This document shows, in pieces, positions 41,074-59,345 of a DNA stretch of 64,000 nt. Every line of letters begins with the position of its first letter. Position 1 is the first letter of the stretch. Source of the DNA: Halopseudomonas laoshanensis (GTDB lineage: Bacteria > Pseudomonadota > Gammaproteobacteria > Pseudomonadales > Pseudomonadaceae). The notes beneath the pieces were generated by a model. It saw only the letters and a program-made list of their open reading frames with translations, made no database searches and was not told where the DNA came from. Made by a program: the position numbers and the translations under genes. Location of the stretch: positions 310,001 to 374,000 of the forward strand of contig NZ_QOVF01000003.1 of NCBI RefSeq assembly GCF_008365385.1, read 5' to 3'.

Positions 41074-41080
41074 AGCCACC

Positions 41081-41884: not shown

Positions 41885-41885
41885 A

Positions 41886-42881: not shown

Positions 42882-43152
42882 TTTTCATTTCTCCGGGATA
42901 GGTGAAGCAGTGGTCAAATATCCTGACCAGTTAGGCAGGTTTTAATTGGATGAGCAAAATGCGGGCCACTTCTGGTGATTGGCGATGTCTTGGTGGGTTC
43001 GCCTGCAAGTCAGGGGCCGGAAGCCCCGGGTCGCGCTCCCACGCCGGTTTCCCGGTATGGCAGCGCCAGGGGATGTGCGCGAAAACGGTGCAGCCTGACG
43101 GTTCTCGCACGGGCGGAGTGCAGGCCGAGTACGCTGGCCTGCTGGCCCGGAC
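42882..43152. promoter_or_regulatory. Promoter region of nucleobase ABC/deaminase operon
   Basis: No gene is evident. The part near 42911-42939 holds TGGTCAAATATCCTGACCA and the overlapping CTGACCAGTTAGGCAGG. The rest is GC-rich spacer up to the end of the leftward DMT gene. Confidence 0.5.
42911..42939. promoter_or_regulatory. RutR-like operator (site a)
   Basis: CTGACCAGTTAGGCAG, preceded by TGGTCA at 42911 (together TGGTCA-n7-TGACCA). It matches the recurring CTGACCA-type operator of this region and is upstream of the binding-protein gene. Confidence 0.6.
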
Positions 43153-44110: not shown

Positions 44111-44914
44111 TTAGTGCTCCACTTTCAGTGCACTTTCATGCCAGTTGCGCAGCGCCCGGTCTGACAGCCAGACCATCAGCGCGAAGAGCGCGATGCCGGT
44201 CAGGGTAATCAGTGCCAGAGCGGCGAACATGCGCGGAATCTGCAGGTTATAGCCCGACTGCAGAATCATGTAGGCCAGACCCGCCTTGGCTCCGCCGGTA
44301 CCGGCGACAAACTCTGCGACCACCGCGCCAATCAACGCCAGACCGCTGCTGATGCGTAGCCCGCCGAAGAAATACGGCAACGCGCCGGGAATACGCAGGC
44401 GAATCAGCTCCTGCCAGCGGCTGCTGCGGTACATGCGGAACATGCTCAGCAGATTCGGATCCACGCTGCGCAAGCCCAGGGTGGTGTTGGAGATGATCGG
44501 GAAGATGGCAATGATCACCGCGCAAACAGTCAGCGCCCAGGTGGTGTCGTCAATCCAGATAATGATCAGCGGCGCGATGGCCACCACGGGCGTGACCTGC
44601 ATCAGCACCGCGTAGGGAAACAGGCTCAGCTCGATCCACTTGCTCTGTACGAACAGCAGCGATGCGGCCACGCCGAGTATCACGGAGATGGCAAAGGCCA
44701 TGAAGGTGACTTTCAGTGTGATCATCAGCGCCGCCAGCAGCGGCCGCCAATCGGTAACCAGCGAATCAAAAATCGCCGAGGGCCCGGGCAGAATGTAGCG
44801 CGGCACCTCCATGGCGACTACTGCCCCTTCCCAGAGCAGTAAAAACAGTACGCCGACGACTAATGGCGCGGCAATCTTGACGAAGTTTTCGTTCTGGATC
44901 AGTGGCGTGCCCAT
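44111..44914 (-). CDS. ABC transporter permease (nucleobase-type)
   Basis: A 267-residue permease with six helices. Its cytoplasmic loop contains EAA-like YRSSRWQELIRLRIPGALPYFFGGLRISSGLALIGAVVAEFVAGTGG. It is a paralogue of the 41-kb permease. GGAGG sits seven to eight bases before the ATG, and the start overlaps the ATPase stop by one base. It would form the channel for the binding protein encoded two genes upstream. Confidence 0.9.
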   Translation of the reverse strand: MGTPLIQNENFVKIAAPLVVGVLFLLLWEGAVVAMEVPRYILPGPSAIFDSLVTDWRPLLAALMITLKVTFMAFAISVILGVAASLLFVQSKWIELSLFPYAVLMQVTPVVAIAPLIIIWIDDTTWALTVCAVIIAIFPIISNTTLGLRSVDPNLLSMFRMYRSSRWQELIRLRIPGALPYFFGGLRISSGLALIGAVVAEFVAGTGGAKAGLAYMILQSGYNLQIPRMFAALALITLTGIALFALMVWLSDRALRNWHESALKVEH

Positions 44915-45792
44915 CAGTGAGCCTCCTGGGGTGCTGACGCACCCATGGCGCTAGCACGTTCGAGTGCCTGCGAGACCTGACGACAATAGCCGGCGAATTC
45001 GGATGACACGCGAAAATCAGCACTGCGCGGGTAGGGTTCGTCGATACGGATATCCTCGACTATGCGCCCGGGCCGTGCGGCCATCACCACCACGCGGCTG
45101 GACAGATATACCGCTTCATAGACGCTGTGGGTGACAAAGACGATGGTCCAGCCGTTCTTCTGCCAGAGCTTGAGTACGTCGTCGTTGAGCTTGTTGCGGG
45201 TCATTTCGTCGAGTGCGCCAAAGGGTTCGTCCATCAGCAGCAGGTTGGGTTCGGTGATCATCGCCCGGGCAATCGAGGCGCGCATTTGCATACCGCCGGA
45301 CAGCTCGCGCGGGAAGGCATTATCGAAGCCGGTCAGGCCGACCATTTCCAGTGCGCGGTCAATGCGGCCTTCGATCTCGGGGCTGTTGTCGCCCTCCAGA
45401 TCCAGCGGCAAGCGCACATTCTTGCGCACGCGGGCCCAGGGCATCAGCGTGGCGTTCTGGAACACGAATGCCAGTTTGCGACCCTTGTCGCCGATCACGT
45501 TGTAGTCATGTTCCCACCAGTTGACGGTACCGCTGGTCACATCGCCGAGCCCGGCCATGATCCGCAGCAAGGTGCTTTTGCCGCAGCCCGAAGGCCCGAG
45601 CAGGCTGACAAATTCGCCCTGGCGTACGGTGAGATCAGCGCCCTTGAGCGCCACGGTGCCGTTGGCGTAGATCTTGTTGACGTCGCTGACCTGCAGCACC
45701 GGACGGCTGGTCTGGGTGGCATCGGCTGGCGTGCCGGGCGCCGGTGCCGGGGACATGGCGGAGTTACCCGGCGTGATGGGTGAAGCATTCAT
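44914..45792 (-). CDS. ABC transporter ATP-binding protein (nucleobase-type)
   Basis: A 292-residue ATPase whose domain starts near residue 30 after a Pro/Ala-rich leader. It shows Walker A GPSGCGKST, VFQNATLMPW, signature LSGGM, Walker B LLLMDEPFGALD and FVTHSVYEAVYL. The ATG at 45792 with AGGAG eight bases upstream was preferred to a longer form. It is paralogous to the 41-kb ATPase. Confidence 0.92.
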   Translation of the reverse strand: MNASPITPGNSAMSPAPAPGTPADATQTSRPVLQVSDVNKIYANGTVALKGADLTVRQGEFVSLLGPSGCGKSTLLRIMAGLGDVTSGTVNWWEHDYNVIGDKGRKLAFVFQNATLMPWARVRKNVRLPLDLEGDNSPEIEGRIDRALEMVGLTGFDNAFPRELSGGMQMRASIARAMITEPNLLLMDEPFGALDEMTRNKLNDDVLKLWQKNGWTIVFVTHSVYEAVYLSSRVVVMAARPGRIVEDIRIDEPYPRSADFRVSSEFAGYCRQVSQALERASAMGASAPQEAH

Positions 45793-45885
45793 GCTGTGGC
45801 TCCTGGGGTGACCTGCTGGCGCAGGGTCACCCACTCGATAGATAGACTCAGGCTGGCTGAAAACAGGGAGGTTTGAGCGTGGCCC

Positions 45886-46926
45886 TTACTTGAGCACCGG
45901 TTCTGCGGGCAGAAAGTCCAGGGTGTAAACGTCCTTGATATCCAGGTCGGCAGATACCAGCTCGGCTTCCAGCATGAAGTCATGCAGGGCCTTCCAGCGC
46001 TCATCGGTCATCACGCCGATACCGCCGGTCTCGGCATCACCGCCGGTGACCAGGCCATGCTCCTTCATCTTGTCGATGCCGTAGGCAATCTGAGCGTCGG
46101 TCATTTGCGGGTTTTCCTGCTTGATCAGCTCGTTACCCGGCGCCGGATCGGCAAAATAGCTGGCCCAGCCTTCCATGCTCGCCTGCACAAAACGGCGGAC
46201 CAGATCGGGGTTTTCCTCGATCATCTTGTCTGTGGTTTCGATGGTAGTGGCATAGGCGGGGTAGCCATGATCAGCCAGCAGGAAGACCGAGGGCTCGATG
46301 CCGCCCTGCTTGATTGCGTAAGGTTCGGAAGACAGGTAACCCTGCTGGACGATCTTCGGATCAGCCATGAACGGCGCCACGCTGAAGGTATAGGGGCGGG
46401 TCACGTCATCGGTAAAACCATATTCGGCCTTCAGCCAGGGCCAGAAGGTAGTGTGGGCGAAGGCGGCCAGATACACCGGCAGGTTCTCTTCCTTGATCTG
46501 TTCGATGGATGTGACGTTGGGGTGCGCGATCAGCGACTGCGGATCACCCTGAAAGGCTGCGGCGACCGTTTGCACCGGCAGACCTTCTTCCCTGGCCTTG
46601 ACGTTGCCGATGGGATAACCCATGGAGAAATCGCGACGCCCGGCCACCAGCAACTGCATGCCGTTAACCTGTGGCCCGCCCATCTGAATGGACACATTCA
46701 GGCCGTGTTTTTCGTAGATACCCGTGGCCTTGGCCTGATAGAAACCGCCATGTTCGGCCTGGGCGTACCAGTTGGTGCCGAATACGATCTTGTCCAGTTC
46801 CTCGGCAGACACGCCGGGCGCCACTGCGACGCCAGTCAGCAGCAGACCTGCCATGAGTGACAGAGCGCTTTTGTTGTTAGCCGCACCTGTTGCGGCAGCA
46901 ACTGCCGGTTTTTTTCCATAACGCAT
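45886..46926 (-). CDS. ABC transporter substrate-binding protein (NMT1/THI5-like)
   Basis: A 346-residue periplasmic protein whose signal peptide ends near ATGVSA. The mature start is FGTNWYAQAEHGGFYQAKATGIYEKHGLNVSIQMGGPQVNGMQLLVAGRRDFSMGYPIGN. It is a close paralogue of the orphan binding protein at 49.7 kb. It heads the operon binding protein, ATPase, permease, DMT. Two strong RutR-like sites are upstream (46955-46970 and 47028-47043). The ligand is unknown but probably a nucleobase-type compound. Confidence 0.9.
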   Translation of the reverse strand: MRYGKKPAVAAATGAANNKSALSLMAGLLLTGVAVAPGVSAEELDKIVFGTNWYAQAEHGGFYQAKATGIYEKHGLNVSIQMGGPQVNGMQLLVAGRRDFSMGYPIGNVKAREEGLPVQTVAAAFQGDPQSLIAHPNVTSIEQIKEENLPVYLAAFAHTTFWPWLKAEYGFTDDVTRPYTFSVAPFMADPKIVQQGYLSSEPYAIKQGGIEPSVFLLADHGYPAYATTIETTDKMIEENPDLVRRFVQASMEGWASYFADPAPGNELIKQENPQMTDAQIAYGIDKMKEHGLVTGGDAETGGIGVMTDERWKALHDFMLEAELVSADLDIKDVYTLDFLPAEPVLK

Positions 46927-46970: not shown

Positions 46971-47027
46971 TATTTGGAGTAGAGCAAGCACCGTGCCATA
47001 AGGCTGAAAGCGCTTGTTTTCTATTTC

Positions 47028-47117: not shown

Positions 47118-47771
47118 CTAGCGGGCGGCCTGTGCAGCCAGTTCAACCGAAGCCGGTTCCGGAATCACCTGCCCGGCGATACGTGCCACCCGGGCACCCA
47201 GCGCGTAGCCGATCGCCAGCTCGTGCGGATCGACTCCCAGGCGGCCGTCGAAGCCGGTGACCACTGAAGCGCCATAGGGCGAACCGCCGCTGCGGGTGTG
47301 GACCAGTTCCGGCACGCTGTGGGGCACGCCGACAATGATCATGCCGTGTTGCATGAAGGGCATCAGCAGCGACATCAGAGTCATTTCATTGCCCGAGTGC
47401 ATGCCGCCGGTAGAGGTGAAAGCGGCGCCAACCTTTCCAATCAGCGCGCCCTGGCGCCACAGCGGGGCGATCTCGTCGATAAAGGCGCGCAGTGGCGTGC
47501 TCATCAGGCCATAACGAGTGGGCGAACCCCAGATGATACCGGTAGCCCATTCCAGATCTTCCGCGCAGGCCTGTGGCAGGTCGCGGAACTCCGTTTGCGC
47601 GGCGATAAAGTCGACCCGTGAGGGGTCGACGCTGAACTCCGGTTCACTCAGTGCCACCCGACAAAGGCGCACTTCGGCACCCTCTTCCCGCGCGCCCTCC
47701 GCAATTTTTTTCGCCAGGGTCAGGGTACTGCCGTAGCGCGAGTCCACGATCACGGTGATGTGTGAGGTCAT
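47118..47771 (-). CDS. NAD(P)H-dependent flavodoxin-like reductase (WrbA-like)
   Basis: A 217-residue flavodoxin-fold protein. The FMN phosphate loop is DSRYGSTLTLAKKIAEGA near 11-27, and GIIWGSPTRYGLMSTPLRAFIDE and STGGMHSGNEMTLMSLLMPFMQHGM are WrbA-type. It would reduce quinones or supply FMNH2/electrons. Its start codon sits at the edge of a palindrome (TTAACTG-CTC-CAGTTAA) that shares CCAGTTAATC with the operator family, so repression by the same regulator is plausible. It is divergent from the oxygenase gene. Confidence 0.87.
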   Translation of the reverse strand: MTSHITVIVDSRYGSTLTLAKKIAEGAREEGAEVRLCRVALSEPEFSVDPSRVDFIAAQTEFRDLPQACAEDLEWATGIIWGSPTRYGLMSTPLRAFIDEIAPLWRQGALIGKVGAAFTSTGGMHSGNEMTLMSLLMPFMQHGMIIVGVPHSVPELVHTRSGGSPYGASVVTGFDGRLGVDPHELAIGYALGARVARIAGQVIPEPASVELAAQAAR

Positions 47772-47791: not shown

Positions 47792-47856
47792 GATGAATTT
47801 GCCTGTAGAGTGGTTTTGCAACCCGCATGCCATGAACTGGCATATATCGTGAATAA

Positions 47857-47895: not shown

Positions 47896-48861
47896 ATGCT
47901 GGTAACTGATGCGCCCTCGGCGCTGCCGGTGATTGATCTGTCAGCGCTGCGCGGCGACGTGCAGGCAGACAAGCTGGAGACCGGTCGGCAGTTGCGCGAT
48001 GCCTGTCTGCATACCGGTTTTTTCTACATTTCCGGGCACGGCATTCCGGACCCGTTGATCGACCTGGTGTTCGCCGAATCGCGGGCGTTTTTCGACCAGC
48101 CGGTGGCGGAAAAGCAGAAGGTTGACAAGGCCAGCTCCGCGGCCAACCGCGGCTATGAAACGCTGGGCGGGCAAACCCTGGAGCCCGGCGCGCCGCCGGA
48201 CCTGAAGGAGGGTTTCTATATTGGCGAGGAATTGCCGGAAGACGATCCTCGGGTGCTGGCCGGCGGCTTCAATCTGGGGCCGAATCAGTGGCCACCCGCG
48301 TTGCCCGGCTTTCGCACGGCGATGGACAGTTACTTCGAGGCCATGCTGGCGCTGAGCGAGCGGATCATGGCGGGTCTCGCCCTGTCGCTGGATCTGCCGG
48401 AGGACTTTTTCGCCGATTTCTGCGAACAGCCCTTGGCTACGCTGCGTCTGCTGCACTACCCGCCGCAGCCAGCCAAACCGCTGCCGGGTGAAAAGGGCTG
48501 CGGCGCGCATACCGATTTCGGCGGGATCACCATCCTGTTGCTGGATGACAAGCCCGGGCTGCAGGTCTGGGATGCGACAGGTGATCGCTGGCTGGATGCA
48601 GCGCCGATTCCCGGCACCTTTGTAGTCAATCTGGGCGACATGATCGCGCGCTGGACCAATGATCGCTATCGCTCGACCCTGCACCGCGTGGTCAATACCT
48701 CGGGTACCGAGCGCTATTCGGTGCCGTTCTTCTACAGTGGTGCGCTGAATCACCAGGTGCGCTGCCTGCCGGCCTGTTTGGCCCCTGGCGAAAGCGCGAA
48801 ATATCCGCCGACCACAGTGGGCGAGCATCTGAAGGAGATGTACCGGAGGACCTATGTCTGA
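47896..48861 (+). CDS. Isopenicillin-N-synthase-family 2OG-Fe(II) oxygenase (paralogue 1)
   Basis: A 321-residue oxygenase. The N-terminal DIOX_N-type region (PVIDLSALRGD, then GFFYISGHGIP) is followed by the jelly roll. The iron ligands are H205, D207 (AHTDFG) and H263 (TLHRV), with R273/S275 (RYS) for 2-oxoglutarate. Fungal thymine 7-hydroxylase belongs to this family, and the nucleobase setting suggests an analogous hydroxylase. GGAGG precedes the ATG. It overlaps the alpha/beta hydrolase gene by eight bases, which suggests sequential steps. Confidence 0.9.
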   Translation: MLVTDAPSALPVIDLSALRGDVQADKLETGRQLRDACLHTGFFYISGHGIPDPLIDLVFAESRAFFDQPVAEKQKVDKASSAANRGYETLGGQTLEPGAPPDLKEGFYIGEELPEDDPRVLAGGFNLGPNQWPPALPGFRTAMDSYFEAMLALSERIMAGLALSLDLPEDFFADFCEQPLATLRLLHYPPQPAKPLPGEKGCGAHTDFGGITILLLDDKPGLQVWDATGDRWLDAAPIPGTFVVNLGDMIARWTNDRYRSTLHRVVNTSGTERYSVPFFYSGALNHQVRCLPACLAPGESAKYPPTTVGEHLKEMYRRTYV

Positions 48862-49618
48862 ACGCAGACCGACGCTGGTATTGATCCACGGGGCCTGGGC
48901 TGGCAGTTGGGTGTGGGCGCAACTGACGCCGTTGCTGCAGGCACAGGGGTATGCGGTGCTGACGCCGGATATGCCGGGCTCGCCCCAGCACCCAGCGGCC
49001 CCAGAAAAGCTCTCGCTGCAGGGCTGCGTTGAGCATGTGCTGGATTGCTGCGCCGAGATCGACGCGCCAATCATGCTGGTCGGGCATTCCGGTGGTGGCG
49101 CCATCGTTACCCAGGTGGCCGAGCTGATGGCGGAGCGGGTGGTTGGGGTGATCTATATTGCCGGCATGATGCTGCCCTCCGGCAGCGGCTTTGCCGAGCT
49201 GGTCGCTGAACTGGTCAAGAGTGAACCGGCCGCTTCCGGCATTGGTCCTTACCTGCAATGGTCCGCTGACCGCAGCGCCTCCTGGGTGCCGGTTGAGGCG
49301 ATACGCGAAATATTTCTACAGGATCTGCCGGATGATCCGGCTCTGGCTGCGGCCGAGCGCTTCTCCTTGCAGCCTGAAGGGACGCGCACGCTGGTGCCGG
49401 TCTGGACGCAGGAGCGTTTCGGGCGCTTGCCGCGATTGTATGTCGAGGCCTTGCAGGATCGCTCGGTGGTCCTGACCGCGCAGCGCCGCATGCAGGCGTT
49501 GGTGCCGGGGGCAGAGGTAGTGAGTTTGGATACCGGCCACGTGCCTCAGGCATCAGCGCCCGATGTACTGGCCGAATTGATAGCGGCGTTCGCCTCGCGG
49601 CATGCCCTGAAAGAATGA
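48854..49618 (+). CDS. Alpha/beta hydrolase (EstC/salicylate-esterase-like)
   Basis: A 254-residue hydrolase. It has LVLIHGAWAGSWVW (oxyanion loop, residues 8-21), the nucleophile elbow GHSGGG (Ser near 78), and a late histidine in LDTGHVPQAS. The tail HVPQ.S.P..LA.LI is like plant-type esterases and hydroxynitrile lyase relatives. It is translationally coupled to oxygenase paralogue 1, so it may cleave that oxygenase's product. Confidence 0.88.
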   Translation: MSERRPTLVLIHGAWAGSWVWAQLTPLLQAQGYAVLTPDMPGSPQHPAAPEKLSLQGCVEHVLDCCAEIDAPIMLVGHSGGGAIVTQVAELMAERVVGVIYIAGMMLPSGSGFAELVAELVKSEPAASGIGPYLQWSADRSASWVPVEAIREIFLQDLPDDPALAAAERFSLQPEGTRTLVPVWTQERFGRLPRLYVEALQDRSVVLTAQRRMQALVPGAEVVSLDTGHVPQASAPDVLAELIAAFASRHALKE

Positions 49619-49620
49619 AA

Positions 49621-49654
49621 ACAACCCACCGCGCTCGACGGCGCGGTGGGTTGT
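49621..49654. terminator. Bidirectional intrinsic terminator
   Basis: ACAACCCACCGCGC (49621-49634) and GCGCGGTGGGTTGT (49641-49654) form a perfect 14-base stem with a six-base loop. It sits between convergent genes, with A-rich and T-containing flanks on both sides. Confidence 0.9.
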
Positions 49655-49668
49655 CGGTTTAACCGCGA

Positions 49669-50658
49669 TTATTCTTCTGTGTAGAGCGCGTCAACAAAGC
49701 GCAGATCGAAGGCTTTTTCCCAGTCCAGATCTTCCGGCAGGGTGCCGGCCTTGACCATGTCCTTGAAGAACAGCTCCCAGCGCTCACGGGTCATGATGCC
49801 GTACTGACCATCGGCGGCGTCACCTGAGAGCAGCATGCCTTCTTCCTGCATCTTGTCCTTGCTGTAAGCCAGCAGATCATCTGCCATCTCCGGGTTGTCC
49901 TCCTTGATCAGCGCGTTGGCCGGTGCCGGATCCTCAAAGTAGGCGGCCCAGCCCTTGGCCGTGGCGGCGACCATGTTCTGTACCAGCTCTGGATTCTCTT
50001 CAATCAGCTTCTGAGTGGTGTCCAGCGTTGCGGAATAGGCATTCCAGCCGTAATCGGCCAGCAGCAGGCTCTGGGCTTCAACGCCTTCCTTGGCAAGGAA
50101 GTAGCCATCGTTGGTGACATAGCCCTGTTGCACCGCCTGTTCGTCGGCGATGAAGGGGCCAAAGCTGTAGTCATAGGCTCGCAGTTGATCATCGGTAAAG
50201 CCGTATTCGGCTTTCAGCCACGGCCAGTAAGCCACGCGGCCGGCGGTTGGAATGCGCAGGCCCTTGCCCTTCAAATCCTCCAACGAGTCGTTGCCCACTC
50301 CGCTATGGGCGACCAGCGATTGTGGATCCTTCTGGAAGAACGCGGCGACGGTAACCAGCGGAATATCCTGCTGGACTGCGTTCAGTGATTGCAGCGCGTA
50401 GCCCATGCTGAAATCACTCTTGCCGCCCATCAGCAACTGCACGTTATTGACCTGCGGACCACCCATGCGGATGGTCACGTCCAGGCCATGTTCTTCGTAG
50501 ATGCCCATGGCCTTGGCGGCATACAGCCCCCCGTGCTCAGCCTGGGCGTACCAGGTGGTGATAACGGTCACGGGGGTCAGTTCGTCGGCACTGGCGGTCA
50601 GGCTGGTAAGGCCCAATCCCAGTGTCAGGGCAAGGGCGAGTCGGCTCTTGTTGTGCAT
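49669..50658 (-). CDS. Orphan ABC substrate-binding protein (NMT1/THI5-like)
   Basis: A 329-residue periplasmic protein with a signal peptide ending near ASA (residue 24). The mature start TTWYAQAEHGGLYAAKAMGIYEEHGLDVTIRMGGPQVNNVQLLMGGKSDFSMGYALQS is nearly the same as the 46-kb binding protein. No ATPase or permease follows: it is the second gene of the operon led by oxygenase paralogue 2. It may therefore dock on the 44-46 kb transporter. The ATG at 50658 has AGGAG nine bases upstream. Confidence 0.9.
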   Translation of the reverse strand: MHNKSRLALALTLGLGLTSLTASADELTPVTVITTWYAQAEHGGLYAAKAMGIYEEHGLDVTIRMGGPQVNNVQLLMGGKSDFSMGYALQSLNAVQQDIPLVTVAAFFQKDPQSLVAHSGVGNDSLEDLKGKGLRIPTAGRVAYWPWLKAEYGFTDDQLRAYDYSFGPFIADEQAVQQGYVTNDGYFLAKEGVEAQSLLLADYGWNAYSATLDTTQKLIEENPELVQNMVAATAKGWAAYFEDPAPANALIKEDNPEMADDLLAYSKDKMQEEGMLLSGDAADGQYGIMTRERWELFFKDMVKAGTLPEDLDWEKAFDLRFVDALYTEE

Positions 50659-50683
50659 GGTTGAAACTCCTGGGTTGATGTTT

Positions 50684-51625
50684 TCAGTAGGTGGCATTCA
50701 GGCGTTGCAGGAGGTGTTCCCCTGCGGAAATTGGTGGGTAGCGCACCGGATTGCTGGCGTCGGTGCAGCTGTCGATACATTCGATATTGGCGTTCTTGTT
50801 CGGGTGACAGAAAAACGCGATCGAGTAGCGGTGGCGGTGCATCGCGGCCTTGGGCACGTTGACCCGATGCGGGGTTGAGCAGAACACATGGTTGGTCCAG
50901 CGGTGCATCAGGTCGCCGGTGTTGATCACCACCGTGCCCGGAATCGGTGTGGCCTGGACCCATTCACCCTGGCGAGTGCAGACTTCCAGCCCGCCGGCGT
51001 CGTCTTGGAACAGCAAAGTGATGCTGCCGTAATCGGTATGCGCACCGGCGCGACTCTCCCCCTGCTCGGCGATAAAGCCCTCTGGCAGTGGCGGGTAGTG
51101 CAGCAGCCGCAGGGTGTGATGGTGCAGGTCATGCGCGTTAACGAAAAAATTGTCCGGTTGGTCAAGTGCGACCGCGAAGGCCTCCAGAATGCGGTCTGCA
51201 GTGGTGATGCAATCCGACAGGAAAGTCTCGACGTGCTCACGGAATTCGGGCTGATCCGCAGGCCAGAGATTACGCGCCGCGCTGGCGTCGCGATCTTCCG
51301 GAGCGGCGTTGAAGGCCTCTTTCAGGTCACCCGGTTTGCTCGGATCCAGGCGCTCGCGGCGCACACCGACATAGCCTCTGTTGCTCTGCGCATTTTGCCA
51401 GGCCACCGATTGCTTGATCTCATCAGGCAAGGCAAAGAAATCCTTTGAGGCCTGAAAAGCCTCGCTGACACTGGCTTGCGGCATACCGCAATTGGCCAGG
51501 TAGAAGAACCCCCACTGGCTGCTGGCTTCGCGCATCTGCGCAGCAACCTGTTGTCTGGCAGTCGGGTCGCCCTGGATAAAAGGGCCAAAGTCGATAATCG
51601 GAATGGATAGTGCTTGTTCGCTCAT
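50684..51625 (-). CDS. Isopenicillin-N-synthase-family 2OG-Fe(II) oxygenase (paralogue 2)
   Basis: A 313-residue oxygenase. The iron ligands are H196, D198 (AHTDYGS) and H253 (TPHRV), with R266/S268 (RYS) for 2-oxoglutarate. N-terminal IPIIDFGPF and WGFFYLANCGMP are family-typical. It is followed by the orphan binding protein on the same transcript. The operator CTGACCAGATAATCAG lies upstream. The three paralogues share the fold but differ in the 80-140 region, so they probably have different substrates. Confidence 0.9.
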   Translation of the reverse strand: MSEQALSIPIIDFGPFIQGDPTARQQVAAQMREASSQWGFFYLANCGMPQASVSEAFQASKDFFALPDEIKQSVAWQNAQSNRGYVGVRRERLDPSKPGDLKEAFNAAPEDRDASAARNLWPADQPEFREHVETFLSDCITTADRILEAFAVALDQPDNFFVNAHDLHHHTLRLLHYPPLPEGFIAEQGESRAGAHTDYGSITLLFQDDAGGLEVCTRQGEWVQATPIPGTVVINTGDLMHRWTNHVFCSTPHRVNVPKAAMHRHRYSIAFFCHPNKNANIECIDSCTDASNPVRYPPISAGEHLLQRLNATY

Positions 51626-51734
51626 AGGTGTATCTCCGGGATGCTGTAATGGGCCATGTGCCCTCGCGAATATCGCTGCGAAAACGGTCCCTGGTTTAGC
51701 CCCGGTTGTGCTACAAAAGCGGGTGGCTCATAAC

Positions 51735-51750
51735 CTGACCAGATAATCAG
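51735..51750. promoter_or_regulatory. RutR-like operator (site f)
   Basis: CTGACCAGATAATCAG, between divergent oxygenase paralogue 2 and the 8-oxoguanine-deaminase-like gene. It is one of the clearest matches to the recurring motif. Confidence 0.75.
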
Positions 51751-51776
51751 GAATTTAAAAGCAAGGGGTGTGCCAT

Positions 51777-51807
51777 GCCCGGAAAGAGGCTTTATACGGG
51801 CTTTTTT
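51777..51807 (+). terminator. Terminator-like stem in amidohydrolase leader
   Basis: GCCCG (51777-51781) and CGGGC (51797-51801) close a stem with an inner AAAG/CTTT pair, and TTTTTT follows directly at 51802-51807. On the plus strand this could end a short transcript or act as an attenuator about 200 bases before the start codon. Confidence 0.55.
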
Positions 51808-52005
51808 GCGTCATTCAGAGGCGCACCTGCACTGACCTGGACCGCTAATCCGTCAGGGGCACCAAATAATGGCTGTTTCCGCTGGCCGCAGGCCGGCCTC
51901 GGTCTTGCATTCGCACTGGCGCGGAGCCGAGTCCTGCAAGGTTAGGAGCCTCCGTTACTGAACACTTCGTTATTGAATACGTTGAATTGGCCAAGGAAAT
52001 TGAAT

Positions 52006-53373
52006 ATGAGCAAGACCCTGTTACTCAAAAATGCCCACCTGATCGCAACCATGGATGATCAGCAGCGGGAGATTGCCGAAGGGTCGATACTGATCCGCGG
52101 CAACCGTATCGAGGCAGTGGGCCCGGTCGCTCAAATGCCCGATACGGCTGACCAGGTGATCGATATGAGCGGTCATATTCTGCTGCCAGGCCTGATCAAT
52201 ACGCATCACCACATGTTCCAGTCACTGACCCGCGCGCTCCCGGCCGCGCAGGATGCCGAGCTATTTGACTGGCTGACCGCACTGTTTCCGGTCTGGCAGA
52301 ACATCACTCCGGCGATGCAGCGCGCCGCTACGCGCACGGCCATGGCCGAACTGATGCTGTCTGGCTGCACCACGGCGGCAGACCATGCCTACCTGTACGT
52401 CAACGGTACGCGCCTGGATGACAGCGTTCAGGCAGCCCAGGAGATGGGCATGCGTTTTCATGCGGCGCGTGGCGCGATGAGCCTGGGTCAGAGCCAAGGC
52501 GGGCTGCCGCCGGACGCACTGGTTGAACAGGATGAGCAGGCGATTCTGCGCGAGATGCAGCGGGTGGTCGAAGAACTGCATGACGCCAGCCCGGATGCGA
52601 TGATTCGCGTGGCGCTGGCGCCCTGCTCGCCCTTTACCGTGACCACCGACTTGATGCGCGAAGCGGCGAGTCTGGCGCGCTCATACGGCGTGGGCCTGCA
52701 TACGCACACCGCCGAGAACAGCAAGGATCTGGCGTTCAGCAAGGAGCGCTACGGCATGACGCCGACCGAGTACACCGAGTCGGTGGGTTGGGTCGGCCCG
52801 GATGTGTGGCATGCCCACTGCGTACATCTGGATGAACCGGGCATCGCGCTGTTCGCGCGCACCGGTACCGGGGTCGCCCACTGCCCCTGCTCGAATATGC
52901 GCCTGGCCTCGGGCATAGCGCCGATCCGCAAGATGCGCGACGCCGGGGTCAAGGTCGGGCTGGGTGTGGACGGCAGCGCTTCGAATGACAGTAATCACCT
53001 GCTGGATGAAGCGCGCCTGGCGATGCTGTCGGCGCGGGTAAGAGATCAGAATCCGGGTGCCATGACCGCGCGCGAAGCGTTATATATTGCCACCCGTGGC
53101 GGCGCCGAGGTGCTCGGGCGGGATGATGTGATTGGCCGCATCGCACCGGGTTATTGCGCCGATATCATCGCTTTTCGTACCGATGACATCAGCATGGCCG
53201 GTGCCCAGAGTGATCCGTTGGCAGCGCTGGTGTTCTGCACGCCGCCACGGGTAGCGCACAGTTTTATCAACGGGCGGCAGGTGATCGAAGACGGGCAGCT
53301 ATTGACCCGCGAAGTGCCCTTGATTATCGAGGAGCATAATCGCCTGGCCATGGAGTTGTTGCAGGGGCGCTAG
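52006..53373 (+). CDS. Amidohydrolase, probable 8-oxoguanine deaminase
   Basis: A 455-residue amidohydrolase-fold deaminase of the AtzA/TrzN group. The metal ligands are H67 and H69 (NTHHHMFQ), a later HTHTAENSKD histidine, HAHCVHLD and D in VDGSASNDS. It resembles the Pseudomonas PA0142 group, an established 8-oxoguanine deaminase that yields urate. The ATG at 52006 is preceded by AAGGAAA. The RutR-like site f and a structured leader lie upstream. Hydrolysis of another aminopurine or triazine cannot be excluded. Confidence 0.87.
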   Translation: MSKTLLLKNAHLIATMDDQQREIAEGSILIRGNRIEAVGPVAQMPDTADQVIDMSGHILLPGLINTHHHMFQSLTRALPAAQDAELFDWLTALFPVWQNITPAMQRAATRTAMAELMLSGCTTAADHAYLYVNGTRLDDSVQAAQEMGMRFHAARGAMSLGQSQGGLPPDALVEQDEQAILREMQRVVEELHDASPDAMIRVALAPCSPFTVTTDLMREAASLARSYGVGLHTHTAENSKDLAFSKERYGMTPTEYTESVGWVGPDVWHAHCVHLDEPGIALFARTGTGVAHCPCSNMRLASGIAPIRKMRDAGVKVGLGVDGSASNDSNHLLDEARLAMLSARVRDQNPGAMTAREALYIATRGGAEVLGRDDVIGRIAPGYCADIIAFRTDDISMAGAQSDPLAALVFCTPPRVAHSFINGRQVIEDGQLLTREVPLIIEEHNRLAMELLQGR

Positions 53374-53386
53374 GTCTCGCAGCCCG

Positions 53387-53418
53387 CAGCCCGCAGCGCC
53401 TTGCGGTGCTGCGGGCTG
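53387..53418. terminator. Stem-loop between convergent genes
   Basis: CAGCCCGCAGC (53387-53397) and GCTGCGGGCTG (53408-53418) form a perfect 11-base stem with a ten-base loop between convergent genes. No T-run follows, so termination is plausible but unproven. Confidence 0.5.
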
Positions 53419-53422
53419 GAAT

Positions 53423-54373
53423 CTATTGCTCGCGGGTGCGGTGTTCGTAAGTCGCGTTGAGGCGATAAGCCAGGTAGTCGGAACAACTGATCGGCGCGTA
53501 TTTGGGCTGCTGGTCCGGCAGGATATCGCGTGGATCGACAATCGACTCGGGATTCACCTCGAGAAAAAACGCCATGGAGTAACGTTCCTGTTCCGGTGGC
53601 CGCACGCGGTGGGGCGTGGAGACGTAGGTATCGTTGCTCCAGCGCATCAGGCAGTCGCCGATATTACACACGAAGGCACCCGGCACGTGGGGCGCCTCAA
53701 TCCATTGTCCCTGGCGGTTGGCCACTTGCAGCCCGGCCACCTGATCGGTCGCCAGCAGGGTGACATTGCCGTAGTCGGTATGCGCGCCGGCGCCGCCGTC
53801 CTCGCGTTGCGAATGGCCGGCACTGGCCGGGTAGCGCAACATGCGCAGGGTGGCGATGGGCATGCTCAGGTGCGCATCAAAGTAGTCTTCGGCCAGTCCC
53901 AGATCAATGCTGAAGCCGCGATGGATCAGCCGGCCGAGGTCCAGGCAGGCGTCCAAATAGGCGAGCATCTCTTCCCGCCAGCGTGGCACCTCGGGCCAGA
54001 AGTTCACGCCCCGGAACGGCTTGCCGGCGAGCACGTCCGGGTGATCGGCCGCAAAGTCGGTGCCGATATTGAAGGCTTCCTTCATGTCGGCGCCGGATGC
54101 GGGGTTGAGCTTTTCATCGGCCATGGCCACGTAGCCGCGGTTATGCGGTGACAGCTTGATCGACAGGCGTTGTTTGTCGGCCAACGGCAGCGCGAAAAAG
54201 CGCTTGGCATTATTGAAGCTGTGTTTTATCAGCTCGGGATCAATACCGTGATCGATGACATAGAAAAAGCCCACTTCACGGCAGGCGACGCCCAATTGAT
54301 GGGCTACCAGCGCGCGCTCCTCGGGATTCTGACTGCGCAGGCCGGCGACGGAAATGATGGGTAGGGTCTTCAT
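53423..54373 (-). CDS. Isopenicillin-N-synthase-family 2OG-Fe(II) oxygenase (paralogue 3)
   Basis: A 316-residue oxygenase with H198, D200 (AHTDYGN) and H255 (TPHRV) as iron ligands and R264/S266 (RYS). The N-terminal LPIISVAGLR and VGFFYVIDHGID are family signatures. Its nearest upstream gene, 15 bases away on the same strand, is an amidohydrolase, so the two enzymes may act in succession. GAGGAG precedes the ATG. Confidence 0.9.
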   Translation of the reverse strand: MKTLPIISVAGLRSQNPEERALVAHQLGVACREVGFFYVIDHGIDPELIKHSFNNAKRFFALPLADKQRLSIKLSPHNRGYVAMADEKLNPASGADMKEAFNIGTDFAADHPDVLAGKPFRGVNFWPEVPRWREEMLAYLDACLDLGRLIHRGFSIDLGLAEDYFDAHLSMPIATLRMLRYPASAGHSQREDGGAGAHTDYGNVTLLATDQVAGLQVANRQGQWIEAPHVPGAFVCNIGDCLMRWSNDTYVSTPHRVRPPEQERYSMAFFLEVNPESIVDPRDILPDQQPKYAPISCSDYLAYRLNATYEHRTREQ

Positions 54374-54388: not shown

Positions 54389-55735
54389 CTAGAGCATGCG
54401 GGTACGTAAGTGGGCGATATCGCGGCATTGCTGAAACAGCCGCAGACCTTGCGCCTGTGCCTGGCTCAGCACTTCGGCTTCATTGACTTGGGTAGCGTGG
54501 CCATCGGCGATCAGTTGCCGGCCATCGACCCAGACACTGGCGACGTTCTGGCTGCCCGCGGCAAATACCAGATTCCACAACACATTGCCGCCCTGGGGAG
54601 TGATTTCGGCCGGGGTCATGTTTGGTGTCTTCAGATCAAGCAACAGCAGGTCGGCGCGCTTGCCTACTTCCAGCGAGCCGATGTCGCGCTCCAGACCCAA
54701 TGCGCGGGCGCCGTTGATGGTCGCCATGCGCAGCATCTGCTCGGCCGGCAGCACGGTGGCGTCCAGGCGGGTGGCTTTCTGAATCAACGAGGAAAATTTC
54801 ATCTCCTCGAAAAGGCTCAGGCTGTTGTTGCACACCGGGCCGTCGGTACCCAGGCCGACAGTCAGCCCGGCCGCGAGCATCTCAGGTACCCGTGCCACGC
54901 CGCTGGCCAGTTTGGCGTTGCTGATCGGGCAGTGGGCAATGGCTGTGCCGGCGTCGGCCAGACGTTTGATTTCCTCATCATTCAACCAGACGCAATGGGC
55001 CAGCAGGGTACGCTCACCGAGAATTCCGTAGTGGTCCAGTTGCGCGATCGAGCGGCGGCCAAAATGCTCCTCGACAGCCTGGTCTTCCTCACGCTGCTCG
55101 CAGGCATGGGTATGGATGCCGACGCCGTAATCGCGCTGGCACTGCAAGGCTTCGGCGTAGGCATCGGCGGTGCAATAGAACAGGTGCTCAAGGCCCATCC
55201 ATACCTGAATGCGGCCGTTCTGGCTGCCGTGGTGGCTGTGAATCAGCGCGCGATTCTCCGCGCGGGTAGCGAAGAAGTCCTTTCCCGGCGCATCGGCCAC
55301 ATAGGGCGCGAGATTCACCCGCAGGCCGATCTCGCCGGCGGCGTCGGCGCAGCGGTGCATGAAGCGATACATATCCATGACGCAGGTGGTGCCGCTTTTC
55401 AGCGCTTCCAGATAACACAGCCGTGCGGAGTGGTAGGCGTATTCTTCGGTAAGCGCGCGGTGTTCAAGCTGGTAGTACGGCAGCCAGTCCATCAGCTGCA
55501 TGTTTTCGGTGACGCCACGCATCAGGCTCGTATGCGAGTGGCAGTCAATCAGGCCGGGCAGCAACGCGTGCCCCTCGGCGTCAATAATCGGGTAACCGTC
55601 CGGTACGGTTATGTCACTTGCCTCGCCCAATGCACGGATACGCCCATCTTCGACGATCAGGATGCCATTGGCGATGACCCGGTTGTGCGGATCCACGGTA
55701 AAAAGTGCGGCATTGCGAATGGCGAAGCGGTTCAA
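54389..55735 (-). CDS. Amidohydrolase (TrzA/AtzA-like nucleobase deaminase)
   Basis: A 448-residue cyclic amidohydrolase. It shows H66 and H68 (DCHSHTSLMRG), IHTHACEQREED, LAHCVWLND and a GTDGPVCNNS aspartate. The family covers S-adenosylhomocysteine/methylthioadenosine deaminases, guanine deaminase-like and triazine hydrolases. It starts at TTG with AGAGGT upstream. It is transcribed with oxygenase paralogue 3. Its substrate is likely an amino-substituted base; the exact one cannot be read. Confidence 0.87.
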   Translation of the reverse strand: MNRFAIRNAALFTVDPHNRVIANGILIVEDGRIRALGEASDITVPDGYPIIDAEGHALLPGLIDCHSHTSLMRGVTENMQLMDWLPYYQLEHRALTEEYAYHSARLCYLEALKSGTTCVMDMYRFMHRCADAAGEIGLRVNLAPYVADAPGKDFFATRAENRALIHSHHGSQNGRIQVWMGLEHLFYCTADAYAEALQCQRDYGVGIHTHACEQREEDQAVEEHFGRRSIAQLDHYGILGERTLLAHCVWLNDEEIKRLADAGTAIAHCPISNAKLASGVARVPEMLAAGLTVGLGTDGPVCNNSLSLFEEMKFSSLIQKATRLDATVLPAEQMLRMATINGARALGLERDIGSLEVGKRADLLLLDLKTPNMTPAEITPQGGNVLWNLVFAAGSQNVASVWVDGRQLIADGHATQVNEAEVLSQAQAQGLRLFQQCRDIAHLRTRML

Positions 55736-55816: not shown

Positions 55817-56503
55817 TCATGTGGGAACGTCCAGACCGCAACCACGCAGAATCACCCCGGTAAGAAACTCGGCCGCATGATCGAAGTCCTGCTTTTCATA
55901 TTCGGCCTTGTTCTCCACCATCAGAATCTGCACCTGGAAGTCGGCGTAATGCTGAGTCGATGACCAGATCAGGAAGATCAACTGCACCGGATCCACCTGG
56001 GCCATGCGCCCCTCGTCTATCCATTGCTGGATAACCATGGCTCGGCCCCTGACCCAGTCACGCATGGTGCCGCGCAAATGGTCCATCAGAAAGGGCGCGC
56101 CCTGGATGATTTCCATGGCGAACAGCCGCGAAGCCAGCGGGTGAGTGCGGGACAGCTCGACCTTGGTGCGGATGAATGCCGTCAGTGCCTTGGCCGGATC
56201 GTCCTCCGGTGAGACTGAGGTAAACACCGCATTCCAGCGCGACAGGATGTCGTCAAACATGGCGCCGTAGATTTCCTTCTTGTTGCTGAAGTAATACAGC
56301 ACGTTGGATTTCGGCAGCTCTGCGCGCTCGGCAATATCCTGGATCGTGGCACCGCGAAAACCGTGCTGGGCGAATTCCTGCTCCGCCGCAGCCAGAATGA
56401 TTTCGCGATTACGCTCGCGAATACGTCCGGGTCGGTAGGTCTTGGATCGGGTCTTGGTGGTCATGCCGTTGTCGTCACTTCTACGCGGTAGGGAGTTCGA
56501 CAT
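55817..56503 (-). CDS. RutR-like TetR-family regulator
   Basis: A 228-residue TetR regulator. The helix-turn-helix lies around 33-77 (HGFRGATIQDIAERAELPKSNVLYYFSNKKEIYGAM). The C-terminal domain carries the RutR-like stretch ASRLFAMEIIQGAPFLMD, then LIFLIWSSTQHYADFQVQI, which parallels E. coli RutR, the uracil/thymine-responsive regulator of pyrimidine and purine genes. It is last in the transporter-porin run. Operators like CTGACCAnnTAATCAG across the region are its likely targets. I kept the first ATG because AGGGAG precedes it. Confidence 0.9.
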   Translation of the reverse strand: MSNSLPRRSDDNGMTTKTRSKTYRPGRIRERNREIILAAAEQEFAQHGFRGATIQDIAERAELPKSNVLYYFSNKKEIYGAMFDDILSRWNAVFTSVSPEDDPAKALTAFIRTKVELSRTHPLASRLFAMEIIQGAPFLMDHLRGTMRDWVRGRAMVIQQWIDEGRMAQVDPVQLIFLIWSSTQHYADFQVQILMVENKAEYEKQDFDHAAEFLTGVILRGCGLDVPT

Positions 56504-56524: not shown

Positions 56525-57277
56525 TCAAAAGTGAAATTTAACCAGGGCACTGACAGCGCTTTCGGTATCCATCACGTCTTCATCCAGACCGTACTTGTTG
56601 TTCCAGTACGAGTACTCGATACCCGCATAAAGAACGCTCGGGCTGCCGAAGTAGTTACCGATATCCAGCTTCAATTGCGGGTTGAAGTGGAAGTCGGACT
56701 CGTGGTCATCGGCGGCGGAAGACCAGTCGATATAACCGTCGAACAGAATGCGGGTAGGACCGAATTCCATGGGTGCGCCCCAGACTACGGTCAACTGGTA
56801 GTCATTATCGGTTTCGCTGTTGTTGACGTGGTAAACGCGGGTGCCAAAGAACTGCAGGCCGGGGATGTTCCAGTCCAGACCCATACCCAGCATCAGGTTG
56901 TTGACGTCGGTACCGCCGCCCATTTCGTACTGGCCGGACAGGGTGACGTCCTTGATCAGGCCGTCGCTCAGGTCGTTGCCGGTCAGCCAGCCGAGGCTGA
57001 TGTTCGGCGCGAATTCGCCGTACAGGTCGTCGGAGTCGGCATCTTTACCGTGGCCCTGGTTACGGTCGACGAAGAAGAAGGTGCTGCCCCAGTTGTGCCC
57101 AGTAGCATTTTCGAAAGTGAAGTAGGTATCGGTACGCTTCTGCGGGCCGAAAGCCTCGTAGTCATCGCTGTAGAGCACAGAGATACTCGAATCAGAGAAG
57201 AATTTCTCGGCGTGAGCTGCGGGAGCGAAAGAGGCTGCGATGCAGACTGCCATAAGGGTTTTGCGCAATGTCGTCAT
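56525..57277 (-). CDS. Tsx-like nucleoside-specific outer-membrane channel
   Basis: A 250-residue outer-membrane protein with a signal peptide (MTTLRKTLMAVCIAASFAPAAHA). The mature chain alternates aromatic and polar residues as beta-strands and ends in ALVKFHF, a C-terminal aromatic as in barrels. The segments DSSISVLYSDDYEAFGPQKRTDTYFTFENATGHNWGSTFFFVD match Tsx-type channels. It would admit nucleosides to the periplasm. It lies between the nucleoside ABC permease and the regulator. Confidence 0.88.
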   Translation of the reverse strand: MTTLRKTLMAVCIAASFAPAAHAEKFFSDSSISVLYSDDYEAFGPQKRTDTYFTFENATGHNWGSTFFFVDRNQGHGKDADSDDLYGEFAPNISLGWLTGNDLSDGLIKDVTLSGQYEMGGGTDVNNLMLGMGLDWNIPGLQFFGTRVYHVNNSETDNDYQLTVVWGAPMEFGPTRILFDGYIDWSSAADDHESDFHFNPQLKLDIGNYFGSPSVLYAGIEYSYWNNKYGLDEDVMDTESAVSALVKFHF

Positions 57278-57328: not shown

Positions 57329-58255
57329 TCACTTGCTCGGCCTATAAGGTTGGCCGATTGATAAAGGGGTATTCAGTTGCGTCCGCGTGGGATTCCACGA
57401 CAGCAGCACCAGCACGACGATGGTGACCAGGTAAGGCAGCATCGCCAGCAGCTCGGTCGAGCTGCGCCAGCCGAGCCCCTGGAGGACCAGATGCAGAATG
57501 CTCGCGGCGCCGAACAGATAGGCGCCAAGCAGCACCCGTTCCGGCTTCCAGGTCGCGAAGACCACCAGCGCCAGCGCAATCCAGCCACGCCCCGAGGTCA
57601 TGTTTTCGGTCCACATCGGGGTGTAGGCCAGCGACAGATAGGCGCCAGCGAGACCGGCCATGCCGCCGCCAAAGGCCACCGCCAGGTAACGCACCGCCAG
57701 CACCCGCATGCCATTGGCATTGGCCGCCTCTGGGGATTCACCCACGGCTCGCACGATCAGCCCTCCCCGGCTGTAGCGCAGGAATACGAACACCAGCACG
57801 AACAGCAGCAGCGACAGGTAGACCAGCAGGTCCTGGCGGAACAGCACGGTGCCGAGCACGGGAATCTCGGACAGGTAGGGAATGGCAATTTTGGGGAAGC
57901 CCGAGATCGAACTACCGACGTGGCCGCTGCCAATAAAGGCGCTCAAACCGGTTCCGAAGATGGTCAGCGCCAGACCGGCCGCGTATTGATTGGCGGCCAG
58001 GGTGACGGCCATCAGTGCGAACAGCATCGACATCAGAATGCCGGCAGCGATCGCAGCGAGAACCCCGACTGCCAGGCTGCCGCTGGTCACGGCGGCGATA
58101 AAACCCATGACCGCGCCCATCAGCATCATGCCTTCCTGGCCCAGGTTGAGGACCCCAGAGCGCTCGCAGACCAGTTCACCCAGCGCCACCAGCAGTAGCG
58201 GTGTGCCGGCGATAACGGTAGCGGCGAGTATATTGGTGATCAGCAGCGTATCCAT
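57329..58255 (-). CDS. Nucleoside ABC transporter permease (YufQ/NupQ-like)
   Basis: A 308-residue permease of the BPD_transp_2 (sugar/nucleoside) type with nine to ten helices: TPLLLVALGELVCERSGVLNLGQEGMMLMGAV (18-49) and RAVGESPEAANANGMRVLAVRYLAVAFGGGMAGLAGAYLS. These are characteristic of BmpA-linked nucleoside importers. AGGAGG lies before the ATG at 58255. It follows the other permease by one base. Confidence 0.9.
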   Translation of the reverse strand: MDTLLITNILAATVIAGTPLLLVALGELVCERSGVLNLGQEGMMLMGAVMGFIAAVTSGSLAVGVLAAIAAGILMSMLFALMAVTLAANQYAAGLALTIFGTGLSAFIGSGHVGSSISGFPKIAIPYLSEIPVLGTVLFRQDLLVYLSLLLFVLVFVFLRYSRGGLIVRAVGESPEAANANGMRVLAVRYLAVAFGGGMAGLAGAYLSLAYTPMWTENMTSGRGWIALALVVFATWKPERVLLGAYLFGAASILHLVLQGLGWRSSTELLAMLPYLVTIVVLVLLSWNPTRTQLNTPLSIGQPYRPSK

Positions 58256-58256
58256 A

Positions 58257-59345
58257 TCAGGCCTCCTGCCCGGTTGTAGCAGCAGCCAGCGGTCGGCGCA
58301 GCCGCAGGCGATAATGGATAAAGGCGTCACAGGTCAGCAGATAGAACAGCAGCAGCCCTTGAAACAGCCCGGTAATCGCCTTGGGCAGGTTCATCGCGAT
58401 CTGCAGCATCTCGCCGCCCATGAACGTCAGCGCCAGCAGCGCACTGGCCAGCACAATGCCCAGTGCCTGCATACGGCCGAGGAACACCACGATGATCGCG
58501 GTGTAGCCGTAGCCGGGAGACACCTGAGGCACCAACTGGCCAATCGGCCCACTGACCTCGGAGGCGCCGGCCAGACCGGCCATCGCGCCGGCCAGCAGAA
58601 ACGCCAGCCAGGTCAGCCGCCGCGCGCCGAACCCGGCAAAGGCAGCAGCGCGGGTGTCCTGACCCAGCACCTTGAGTTGAAAGCCGACGAAGGTACGGGT
58701 AAAAAGCACGCCCACCACCACGGCGGCCAGCAGCGCGAACAACAGGCCGATATGCAGGCGCGTGTCGGGGATCAGTTTGGGCAACAGGGCGGCGGCGGCG
58801 AACATTTCCGATTGCGGAAAGCCGAAGCCCATCGGGTCCTTGAGCGGGCCGTGCACTGTGTAGAGCAGCAGGTTCAGCGCAATGTAGTTGAGCATGATGG
58901 TGGTGAGAATTTCATTGCAGTGAAAATGCGTTTTCAGCACCGCGGCGATCCAGGCCCAGAGTGCTCCGGCGATTGCCCCGGCCAGCAGCACGGCGGGCAA
59001 TACCCAGAAGCCGCCGTGTTCGGTCAGTTGCAGGGCCACCACCGAGGCCCAGAGTGCGCCCATGAGAAAGTGGCCCTCGGCACCGATATTCCACAGCTTT
59101 GCGCGGTAGCAGATGGTCAGGCCTGCGGCGCAGAGCAATAGTGGCGCCATTTTCAGACCCAGTTCGGCCCAGCCATGGGCATCGCTCAGGGGGATCAGAA
59201 AGAAAAACGTCAGGCCTTCAATGGGATCTTTGCCCAGCGCCATAAACAGACCCAACGCGGTTATCACGGTCAGCACCAGGGCCAGCAGTGGTGAGGCCCA
59301 CTGCATCAGCCGCGAATCGGTGGCTCGGCGTTCAAGCGACAGCAT
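58257..59345 (-). CDS. Nucleoside ABC transporter permease (YufP/NupP-like)
   Basis: A 362-residue permease. Its EAA-like segment is GFQLKVLGQDTRAAAFAGFGARRLTWLAFLLAGAMAGLAGASEV, and LWNIGAEGHFLMGALWASVVAL is typical of the YufP group. It overlaps the ATPase stop by 14 bases and precedes the second permease. The start at 59345 has AAGGGG upstream. Together with the neighbouring genes it would make a heterodimeric channel for purine and pyrimidine nucleosides. Confidence 0.9.
   Translation of the reverse strand: MLSLERRATDSRLMQWASPLLALVLTVITALGLFMALGKDPIEGLTFFFLIPLSDAHGWAELGLKMAPLLLCAAGLTICYRAKLWNIGAEGHFLMGALWASVVALQLTEHGGFWVLPAVLLAGAIAGALWAWIAAVLKTHFHCNEILTTIMLNYIALNLLLYTVHGPLKDPMGFGFPQSEMFAAAALLPKLIPDTRLHIGLLFALLAAVVVGVLFTRTFVGFQLKVLGQDTRAAAFAGFGARRLTWLAFLLAGAMAGLAGASEVSGPIGQLVPQVSPGYGYTAIIVVFLGRMQALGIVLASALLALTFMGGEMLQIAMNLPKAITGLFQGLLLFYLLTCDAFIHYRLRLRRPLAAATTGQEA

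Follow-up and report, generated by a model that had tools for sequence, protein, structure and literature searches.

Introduction

The xanthine riboswitch (NMT1 motif) senses xanthine and urate and switches genes off; associated with it are genes for isopenicillin N synthase (IPNS)-like dioxygenases, NMT1/THI5 proteins, tauA, tsx, PRK12393 and 8-oxoguanine-type deaminases, for which purine substrates were predicted (PMC7373994). That work already tied IPNS-like dioxygenases to NMT1 transporters and purine deaminases, and the dioxygenases were without established function as of the 2020 paper, none being found in the literature searched. Here we describe a stretch of 64,000 nucleotides from the marine, Pseudomonas-type bacterium Halopseudomonas laoshanensis (contig NZ_QOVF01000003.1, positions 310,001 to 374,000; hereafter the window), which carries three IPNS-type 2-oxoglutarate (2OG)-Fe(II) oxygenases, OXY1, OXY2 and OXY3, and beyond whose end lies a fourth paralogue, OXY4. 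The locus resembles the riboswitch regulon in its IPNS-like dioxygenases, its NMT1/THI5 and tauA-type binding proteins, tsx, PRK12393 deaminases and a TadA-like deaminase, and in the presence of the riboswitch (RF03054) on OXY4 and deaminase genes of the cluster; it differs in that OXY1-3 and the window's transporters are without a riboswitch, OXY2 and the transporters having sigma-54-type sites, and in that four oxygenase paralogues share one cluster.

Further described enzymes invite comparison. Fungal thymine-7-hydroxylase (T7H; 5c3p) shares with OXY2 its fold, iron, 2OG and base-stacking residues and a base-bonding Asn, whereas OXY2 has purine rather than pyrimidine neighbours, with no uracil-degrading pathway recognised. 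Caffeine N-demethylation by NdmABCDE of Pseudomonas putida CBB5 acts on methylated purines before xanthine, and NdmA- and NdmCDE-like proteins are encoded in the same clusters as relatives of OXY1 and OXY2; the Ndm enzymes, however, are Rieske oxygenases, none of which was recognised in the window. One caffeine-degradation genome paper does not mention oxygenases of the present type, nor do passages of a review of the field mention 2OG. PaIPNS (6jyv) of P. aeruginosa is the closest natural solved relative of OXY3, but it has Trp at the position of the pocket Asn and is without known function (PMC12329707).

We propose that the cluster scavenges nitrogen from purines and that its oxygenases oxidise modified purines before deamination or hydrolysis, a reading that we consider on balance probable. 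NMT1-type and BMP-type transporters and Tsx would import purines; each IPNS-type oxygenase would oxidise a modified purine, at a different position or on a different base; the adjoining enzyme, an 8-oxoguanine-type or other deaminase or an alpha/beta hydrolase, would then deaminate or hydrolyse the product, and xanthine dehydrogenase and urate oxidase would finish the breakdown of the ring. New here are the four paralogues in one cluster, a widespread T7H-like OXY2 clade that includes cyanobacteria, the pattern of pocket residues and the link to sigma-54. Little is known of how bacteria use modified purines released by RNA and DNA turnover. Because the genus can be grown in culture, and because the four paralogues come with constant partners and distinct regulatory signals, their substrates can be tested directly.

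Four IPNS-type oxygenases lie within a purine-catabolism cluster

The original prediction, made from the letters of the window, had placed three paralogues with complete iron and 2OG sites in one nucleobase cluster, each with a different partner. The open reading frames of OXY1-3 are intact, and their G+C content at third codon positions (0.71-0.77) is similar to that of neighbouring genes; all three match PF14226 (DIOX_N) and PF03171 (2OG-FeII_Oxy) at 83-117 bits (cut-offs 23-27) and retain the H-x-D...H iron site and the R-x-S 2OG pair (R286/S288 in Neurospora T7H numbering), as had been claimed. OXY1-4 are the only PF03171 proteins in the whole 4.1-Mb genome and sit within about 22 kb, so that clustering by chance is negligible; pairwise identities of 32-38% identify them as old paralogues rather than products of a recent local duplication. 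IPNS scored 63-92 bits against OXY1-3, as against 190-238 bits for the top Protein Data Bank (PDB) matches; judged by sequence, OXY1-3 are not IPNS proper, which is not their closest characterised relative. A chance presence here of non-nucleobase oxidases, like those for hormones, flavonoids or beta-lactams, would accord with the Pfam families, which the plant and IPNS enzymes share, and with the loose grouping of OXY1 with fungal TraH/TropC/SpoC, but these IPNS scores, the conserved pairing with purine genes and the sigma-54 site described below make that explanation highly improbable.

The three partners are indeed different: an alpha/beta hydrolase for OXY1, an NMT1-type binding protein (SBPB2) for OXY2 and an amidohydrolase for OXY3. 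SBPB2 had been regarded as an orphan, which need not be so, as it is 51% identical to SBPB1, a binding protein with its own permease and ATPase. The nearest PDB entry to the amidohydrolase is a methylthioadenosine/S-adenosylhomocysteine (MTA/SAH) deaminase (227 bits), and in the NCBIfam profile scan it fell under every equivalog cut-off. The nucleobase cluster proved to be specifically one of purine catabolism, with deaminases, XdhABC, UraD, HIU hydrolase and the urate oxidase PuuD. It extends from about 39.8 kb to 76 kb in window coordinates, running beyond the window: XdhB is followed there by XdhC, UraD, HIU hydrolase, guanine deaminase and the urate oxidase PuuD, the binding protein of the BMP-type transporter lies just past the window edge, and the cluster further includes the PRK12393 deaminase and PxpABC. 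The parts of the ABC (ATP-binding cassette) transporters, Xdh, UraD, HIU hydrolase, PuuD and PxpABC were named by reading their sequences, without a family call.

OXY2 resembles fungal thymine-7-hydroxylase

The original prediction drew a parallel between all three oxygenases and T7H and called for a phylogeny against T7H and IPNS-type enzymes. For OXY2 the parallel holds. Its best PDB match was T7H of N. crassa (5c3p; 41% identity), at 224 bits versus 164 for the next family. An AlphaFold model built with 49 sequences had a mean confidence (pLDDT) of 90.9 and was used, whereas one built with ten close homologues (47.5) was discarded; comparison of the fold ranked T7H first by VIA Z score (38.5; root-mean-square deviation 2.5 over 306 aligned residues), the next entry scoring 35.3. 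In the tree, T7H joined the OXY2 clade on a long branch with support of 98/62, a placement that is not firm. OXY4 lay near this clade, and the parallel extends to it more loosely; it fails for OXY3, which formed a separate clade, and for OXY1, which lay nearer PaIPNS and fungal TraH/TropC/SpoC in a loose grouping. Placement of T7H with the OXY3 clade was rejected (approximately unbiased test, p-AU 0.002). The entry 9ovh, top PDB match of both OXY1 and OXY3, was dropped as a functional lead, being an ancestral reconstruction and not a natural enzyme (PMC12329707).

T7H contacts its base through Phe292, Tyr217 and Asn87 and through waters on Glu122 and Asn294, of which the N294A substitution was without effect (PMC4787775). 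OXY2 retains the iron and 2OG ligands, Arg190, Tyr217, Phe292 and Asn87; Glu122 is replaced by Asn and Asn294 by His. The residue equivalent to Asn87, which bonds O2 of the base in T7H, is Asn in each of OXY1-4, and it was kept in 19/19 OXY2-type, 11/11 OXY4-type and 13/13 close OXY1 sequences; in solved relatives that are non-nucleobase enzymes or unassigned, the position is occupied by W, W, F, F, R and A. Position 122 varies among the paralogues (Asn in OXY2 and OXY3, Gln in OXY4, Tyr in OXY1), a pattern that fits distinct polar substrates without naming them. By sequence, predicted fold and pocket, OXY2 appears as the nearest bacterial relative of T7H found here; T7H serves as a model enzyme for the chemistry of TET proteins, and the OXY2 clade offers its counterpart in bacteria.

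OXY2 might on these grounds be a bacterial T7H, a pyrimidine enzyme converting thymine to 5-carboxyuracil: T7H is its top match in both sequence and fold, most substrate and cofactor residues are kept, T7H joins its clade, if not firmly, and a RutR-type regulator lies close by. We regard this as quite unlikely, since the OXY2 pocket carries Asn in place of E122 and His in place of N294, since OXY2 is partnered by an 8-oxoguanine deaminase, and since within the genus it occurs only where urate oxidase does, one metagenome-assembled genome (MAG) excepted. RutA is absent from the genome and no dihydropyrimidinase scored above its cut-off, so that uracil derived from thymine would have no recognised onward route among these pyrimidine pathways; among the genome's PF04909 matches there was no clear candidate for an iso-orotate decarboxylase, which is not decisive. 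Thymine is thus unlikely as a general substrate of the oxygenases, and the earlier suggestion of thymine or 5-methylcytosine was not borne out, with no Rut or dihydropyrimidinase route found in the genome.

Oxygenase-partner pairs are conserved and co-occur with urate oxidase

OXY1 and the alpha/beta hydrolase were found together in every related genus stretch in which both were readable; OXY2 was kept with the binding protein and the divergent 8-oxoguanine deaminase across these stretches, and OXY3 with its amidohydrolase in nearly all of them. The pairs were mostly kept in Marinobacter too, where OXY2 had mostly the same neighbours. Among 37 genomes of the genus, PuuD was present in 17, OXY1 in 17, OXY3 in 18, OXY2 in 13 and the xanthine riboswitch in 16; association with PuuD gave Fisher p values of 2e-8 (OXY1), 6e-5 (OXY2) and 1e-9 (OXY3), which are descriptive, being uncorrected for kinship. 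The sole genome with oxygenases but without PuuD was a 92%-complete assembly. It had been suggested that bacterial oxidation of bases before hydrolysis would be a new pathway; the purine cluster and the co-occurrence with urate oxidase support the order of oxidation before hydrolysis, but the gene association had already been published (PMC7373994).

The deaminases bear on the chemistry. At almost every locus read in Halopseudomonas and Marinobacter, the 8-oxoguanine deaminase adjoins OXY2; the PRK12393 deaminase adjoins OXY4 here and in two further loci (L032/L033). C8 hydroxylation of guanine to 8-oxoguanine (or of xanthine to urate) would fit, because the 8-oxoguanine deaminases adjoin: the deaminase would then yield urate, bypassing xanthine dehydrogenase. 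The riboswitch shutting off OXY4 senses both xanthine and urate (PMC7373994), in keeping with such a step. Yet the bypass would be unneeded, xanthine dehydrogenase being encoded in the same cluster, and T7H, the closest characterised relative, oxidises a methyl group. Fungal XanA carries out Fe(II)/2OG C8 hydroxylation of xanthine, a precedent for the reaction, but belongs to another 2OG family than OXY1-4. We hold C8 hydroxylation by one or more of the oxygenases to be rather unlikely.

Sigma-54 sites and the xanthine riboswitch mark different parts of the cluster

Two exact matches to the sigma-54 (-24/-12) promoter were found in the window, one before the OXY2 operon and one before the SBPB1 transporter. 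The OXY2 site, whose conserved form is TGGCAC-N5-TTGCW, was present at each of the 16 loci compared in Halopseudomonas and Marinobacter, 15 times without mismatch; it was not found at two loci further afield, in which OXY2 lies inside an operon. When up to two mismatches were allowed, the window held 43 matches versus 52 expected, a total not above chance, whereas five of the six exact and one-mismatch sites lay within promoter windows (p 1e-4; windows picked post hoc). Weight is accordingly placed on the exact and one-mismatch sites, their placement and their conservation. Where uptake and catabolic genes are under sigma-54, the signal is often nitrogen limitation, and the conserved site before OXY2 points to probable nitrogen control of its operon.

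At the default threshold the genome holds exactly two RF03054 riboswitches (43.9 and 55.8 bits; cut-off 36), one upstream of OXY4 and the other upstream of its divergent PRK12393 deaminase. The element is rare in a sample of the class (2/321). At riboswitch loci sampled across the phylum, an OXY4 orthologue (54-62% identity) was present in 12 of 17 and an OXY1-like gene (45% identity) at three, other such loci holding homologues of the window's two NMT1 transporters and deaminases. Xanthine riboswitches accompany homologues of the SBPA operon in other genomes (L103, L108, L110), and those of the SBPB1 operon were found downstream of xanthine riboswitches elsewhere.

Relatives in other bacteria and on plasmids

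In Alkalilimnicola and Alloalcanivorax, OXY2 lies downstream of a deaminase most like the PRK12393 one; the Alkalilimnicola operon includes a Rieske oxygenase whose best PDB match was NdmA, the methylxanthine N1-demethylase (133 bits), with SxtDIOX at 129 bits. On Pseudomonas plasmid pKF715A, an OXY1 relative (56% identity) lies near an NdmA-like Rieske protein (best PDB match NdmA, 155 bits) and the urate hydroxylase HpxO. Also close to it are genes for a GST-like protein, a fusion of the Rieske-reductase kind and a short subunit of an oxygenase, arranged like NdmE-NdmD-NdmC (PMC4408171). Acinetobacter and Moraxella plasmids carry an OXY1-like and OXY3-like pair with OmpK and an NCS2 permease, the Acinetobacter ones also with HpxO and urease. 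These plasmid relatives support purines as the probable substrates and hint that the purines may be methylated.

2OG oxygenases commonly demethylate N-methylated bases, a chemistry at which the Ndm-like neighbours of the relatives hint here. Oxidative N-demethylation, with release of formaldehyde, is our guess at the most likely reaction, possible though short of an even chance, with C8 hydroxylation of the ring as the next guess.

Orthologues of OXY2 (about 47-55% identity, same pocket) were widespread in cyanobacteria (loci L142-L188). Often an FAD-dependent oxidoreductase lies downstream of them and an AtzE-like amidase upstream, and at two Rhizonema loci a BMP-type transporter adjoins OXY2.

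In Sulfitobacter and Paroceanicella (L114, L115) the genes sharing an operon with an OXY3 relative encode a protein of the cytosine deaminase type (PRK07583 in L115), a creatininase, an FAD oxidase and two NAD(P)H oxidoreductases; together they form an unassigned pathway for a heterocycle. The oxygenases might thus act on other N-heterocycles (pterins, flavins, plant cytokinins or triazine-like xenobiotics) that share purine transporters and deaminases; besides this cytosine-deaminase-type protein and creatininase, the TRZ/ATZ-type amidohydrolase beside OXY3 and the amidase near cyanobacterial OXY2 would agree with such substrates. In the genus, the oxygenases co-occur almost without exception with urate oxidase and with the xanthine riboswitch, which makes this very unlikely.

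In other genera of the family (L039, L041) an OXY3-like oxygenase (43%; pocket His-Asp) adjoins a BMP binding protein, and an 8-oxoguanine-deaminase-like gene lies near it in L039; the arrangement resembles the P. aeruginosa PA0142-PA0148 region. Many of the Acinetobacter and Moraxella purine-island plasmids (L112, L117 and others) were typed as mobile, those of Acinetobacter also bearing Rieske oxygenases.

Weighing the proposed scavenging of purine nitrogen

Several observations weigh against purine nitrogen scavenging. Rfam scans of the window found no RF03054 upstream of OXY1, OXY2 or OXY3, and nothing else relevant; the pocket Asn is lost in some purine-cluster relatives (L101, L102, L109, L111_2), with Met, Leu or His instead; the cyanobacterial OXY2 orthologues are mostly without purine genes alongside; and among the genes scanned near the cluster no formaldehyde-handling gene was recognised. 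The T7H-like protein HxnY has a role in nicotinate breakdown that is unresolved, so that a T7H-like pocket need not imply a nucleobase (PMC9304392). The purine activity of OXY1-4 is itself a prediction, the substrate not being readable from sequence. Against this stand the purine neighbours, the conserved pairs and the regulatory marks, from which we infer that all four oxygenases may have purine substrates. More tentatively, a multi-enzyme pathway controlled by sigma-54 and the riboswitch might draw nitrogen from modified purines, several IPNS-fold 2OG oxygenases, each with its own deaminase or hydrolase, stripping or oxidising different ones; the OXY2 clade, which extends to cyanobacteria, would then be a new family of nucleobase oxygenases.

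Features of the window and its surroundings

Table 1. Oxygenase genes, partners, neighbours and candidate promoters (window coordinates).
Feature	Position	Strand	Remarks
NMT1-type ABC transporter (SBPA, ATPase, permease) and CMP/guanine-deaminase-type protein	39806-42881	-	
Sigma-54 site before SBPA operon	42953-42968	-	one mismatch
NMT1-type ABC transporter (SBPB1, ATPase, permease)	44111-46926	-	SBPB1 at 45886-46926
Sigma-54 site before SBPB1 transporter	46983-46998	-	exact match
WrbA-type NAD(P)H:quinone oxidoreductase	47118-47771	-	NF002999, 155.5 bits (cut-off 141)
Sigma-54 site before WrbA	47817-47832	-	one mismatch
OXY1, IPNS-type 2OG-Fe(II) oxygenase	47896-48861	+	321 aa; pocket NYRHDF..F
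Alpha/beta hydrolase (Abhydrolase_6), OXY1 partner	48854-49618	+	8-bp overlap with OXY1
NMT1/THI5-type ABC binding protein SBPB2, OXY2 partner	49669-50697	-	14-bp overlap with OXY2
OXY2, T7H-like 2OG-Fe(II) oxygenase	50684-51625	-	313 aa; pocket NNRHDY..F
Sigma-54 (-24/-12) promoter of OXY2 operon	51760-51775	-	TGGCAC-N5-TTGCT, exact match
Possible sigma-54-like site toward 8-oxoguanine deaminase	51895-51908	+	GG-N10-GC; divergent intergenic alignment; one-mismatch match in Marinobacter L126
8-oxoguanine deaminase, divergent from OXY2	51973-53373	+	NF006055, 686 bits (equivalog cut-off 532 exceeded)
OXY3, IPNS-type 2OG-Fe(II) oxygenase	53423-54373	-	316 aa; pocket NNRHDY..F
Amidohydrolase (deaminase type), OXY3 partner	54389-55735	-	PF01979; OXY3 15 bp downstream
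TetR regulator, RutR-type (YcdC) C-terminal domain	55817-56503	-	PF08362, 176 bits
Tsx-type nucleoside porin	56525-57277	-	PF03502
BMP-type nucleoside/purine ABC transporter, two permeases and ATPase	57329-60927	-	by sequence reading and gene order
Sigma-54 site before BMP operon	60949-60964	-	one mismatch
XdhA and start of XdhB (xanthine dehydrogenase)	61121-63998	+	by sequence reading
OXY4, fourth paralogue	69246-70334		contig 379246-380334; 5.2 kb past window end

Elsewhere in the window, a Schlafen AlbA_2-type protein is encoded at 32128-33153 (-), and at 36137-38355 (-) a flavin monooxygenase-like gene comes first, with genes for a transporter of the bile-acid-symporter type and for an epimerase after it.

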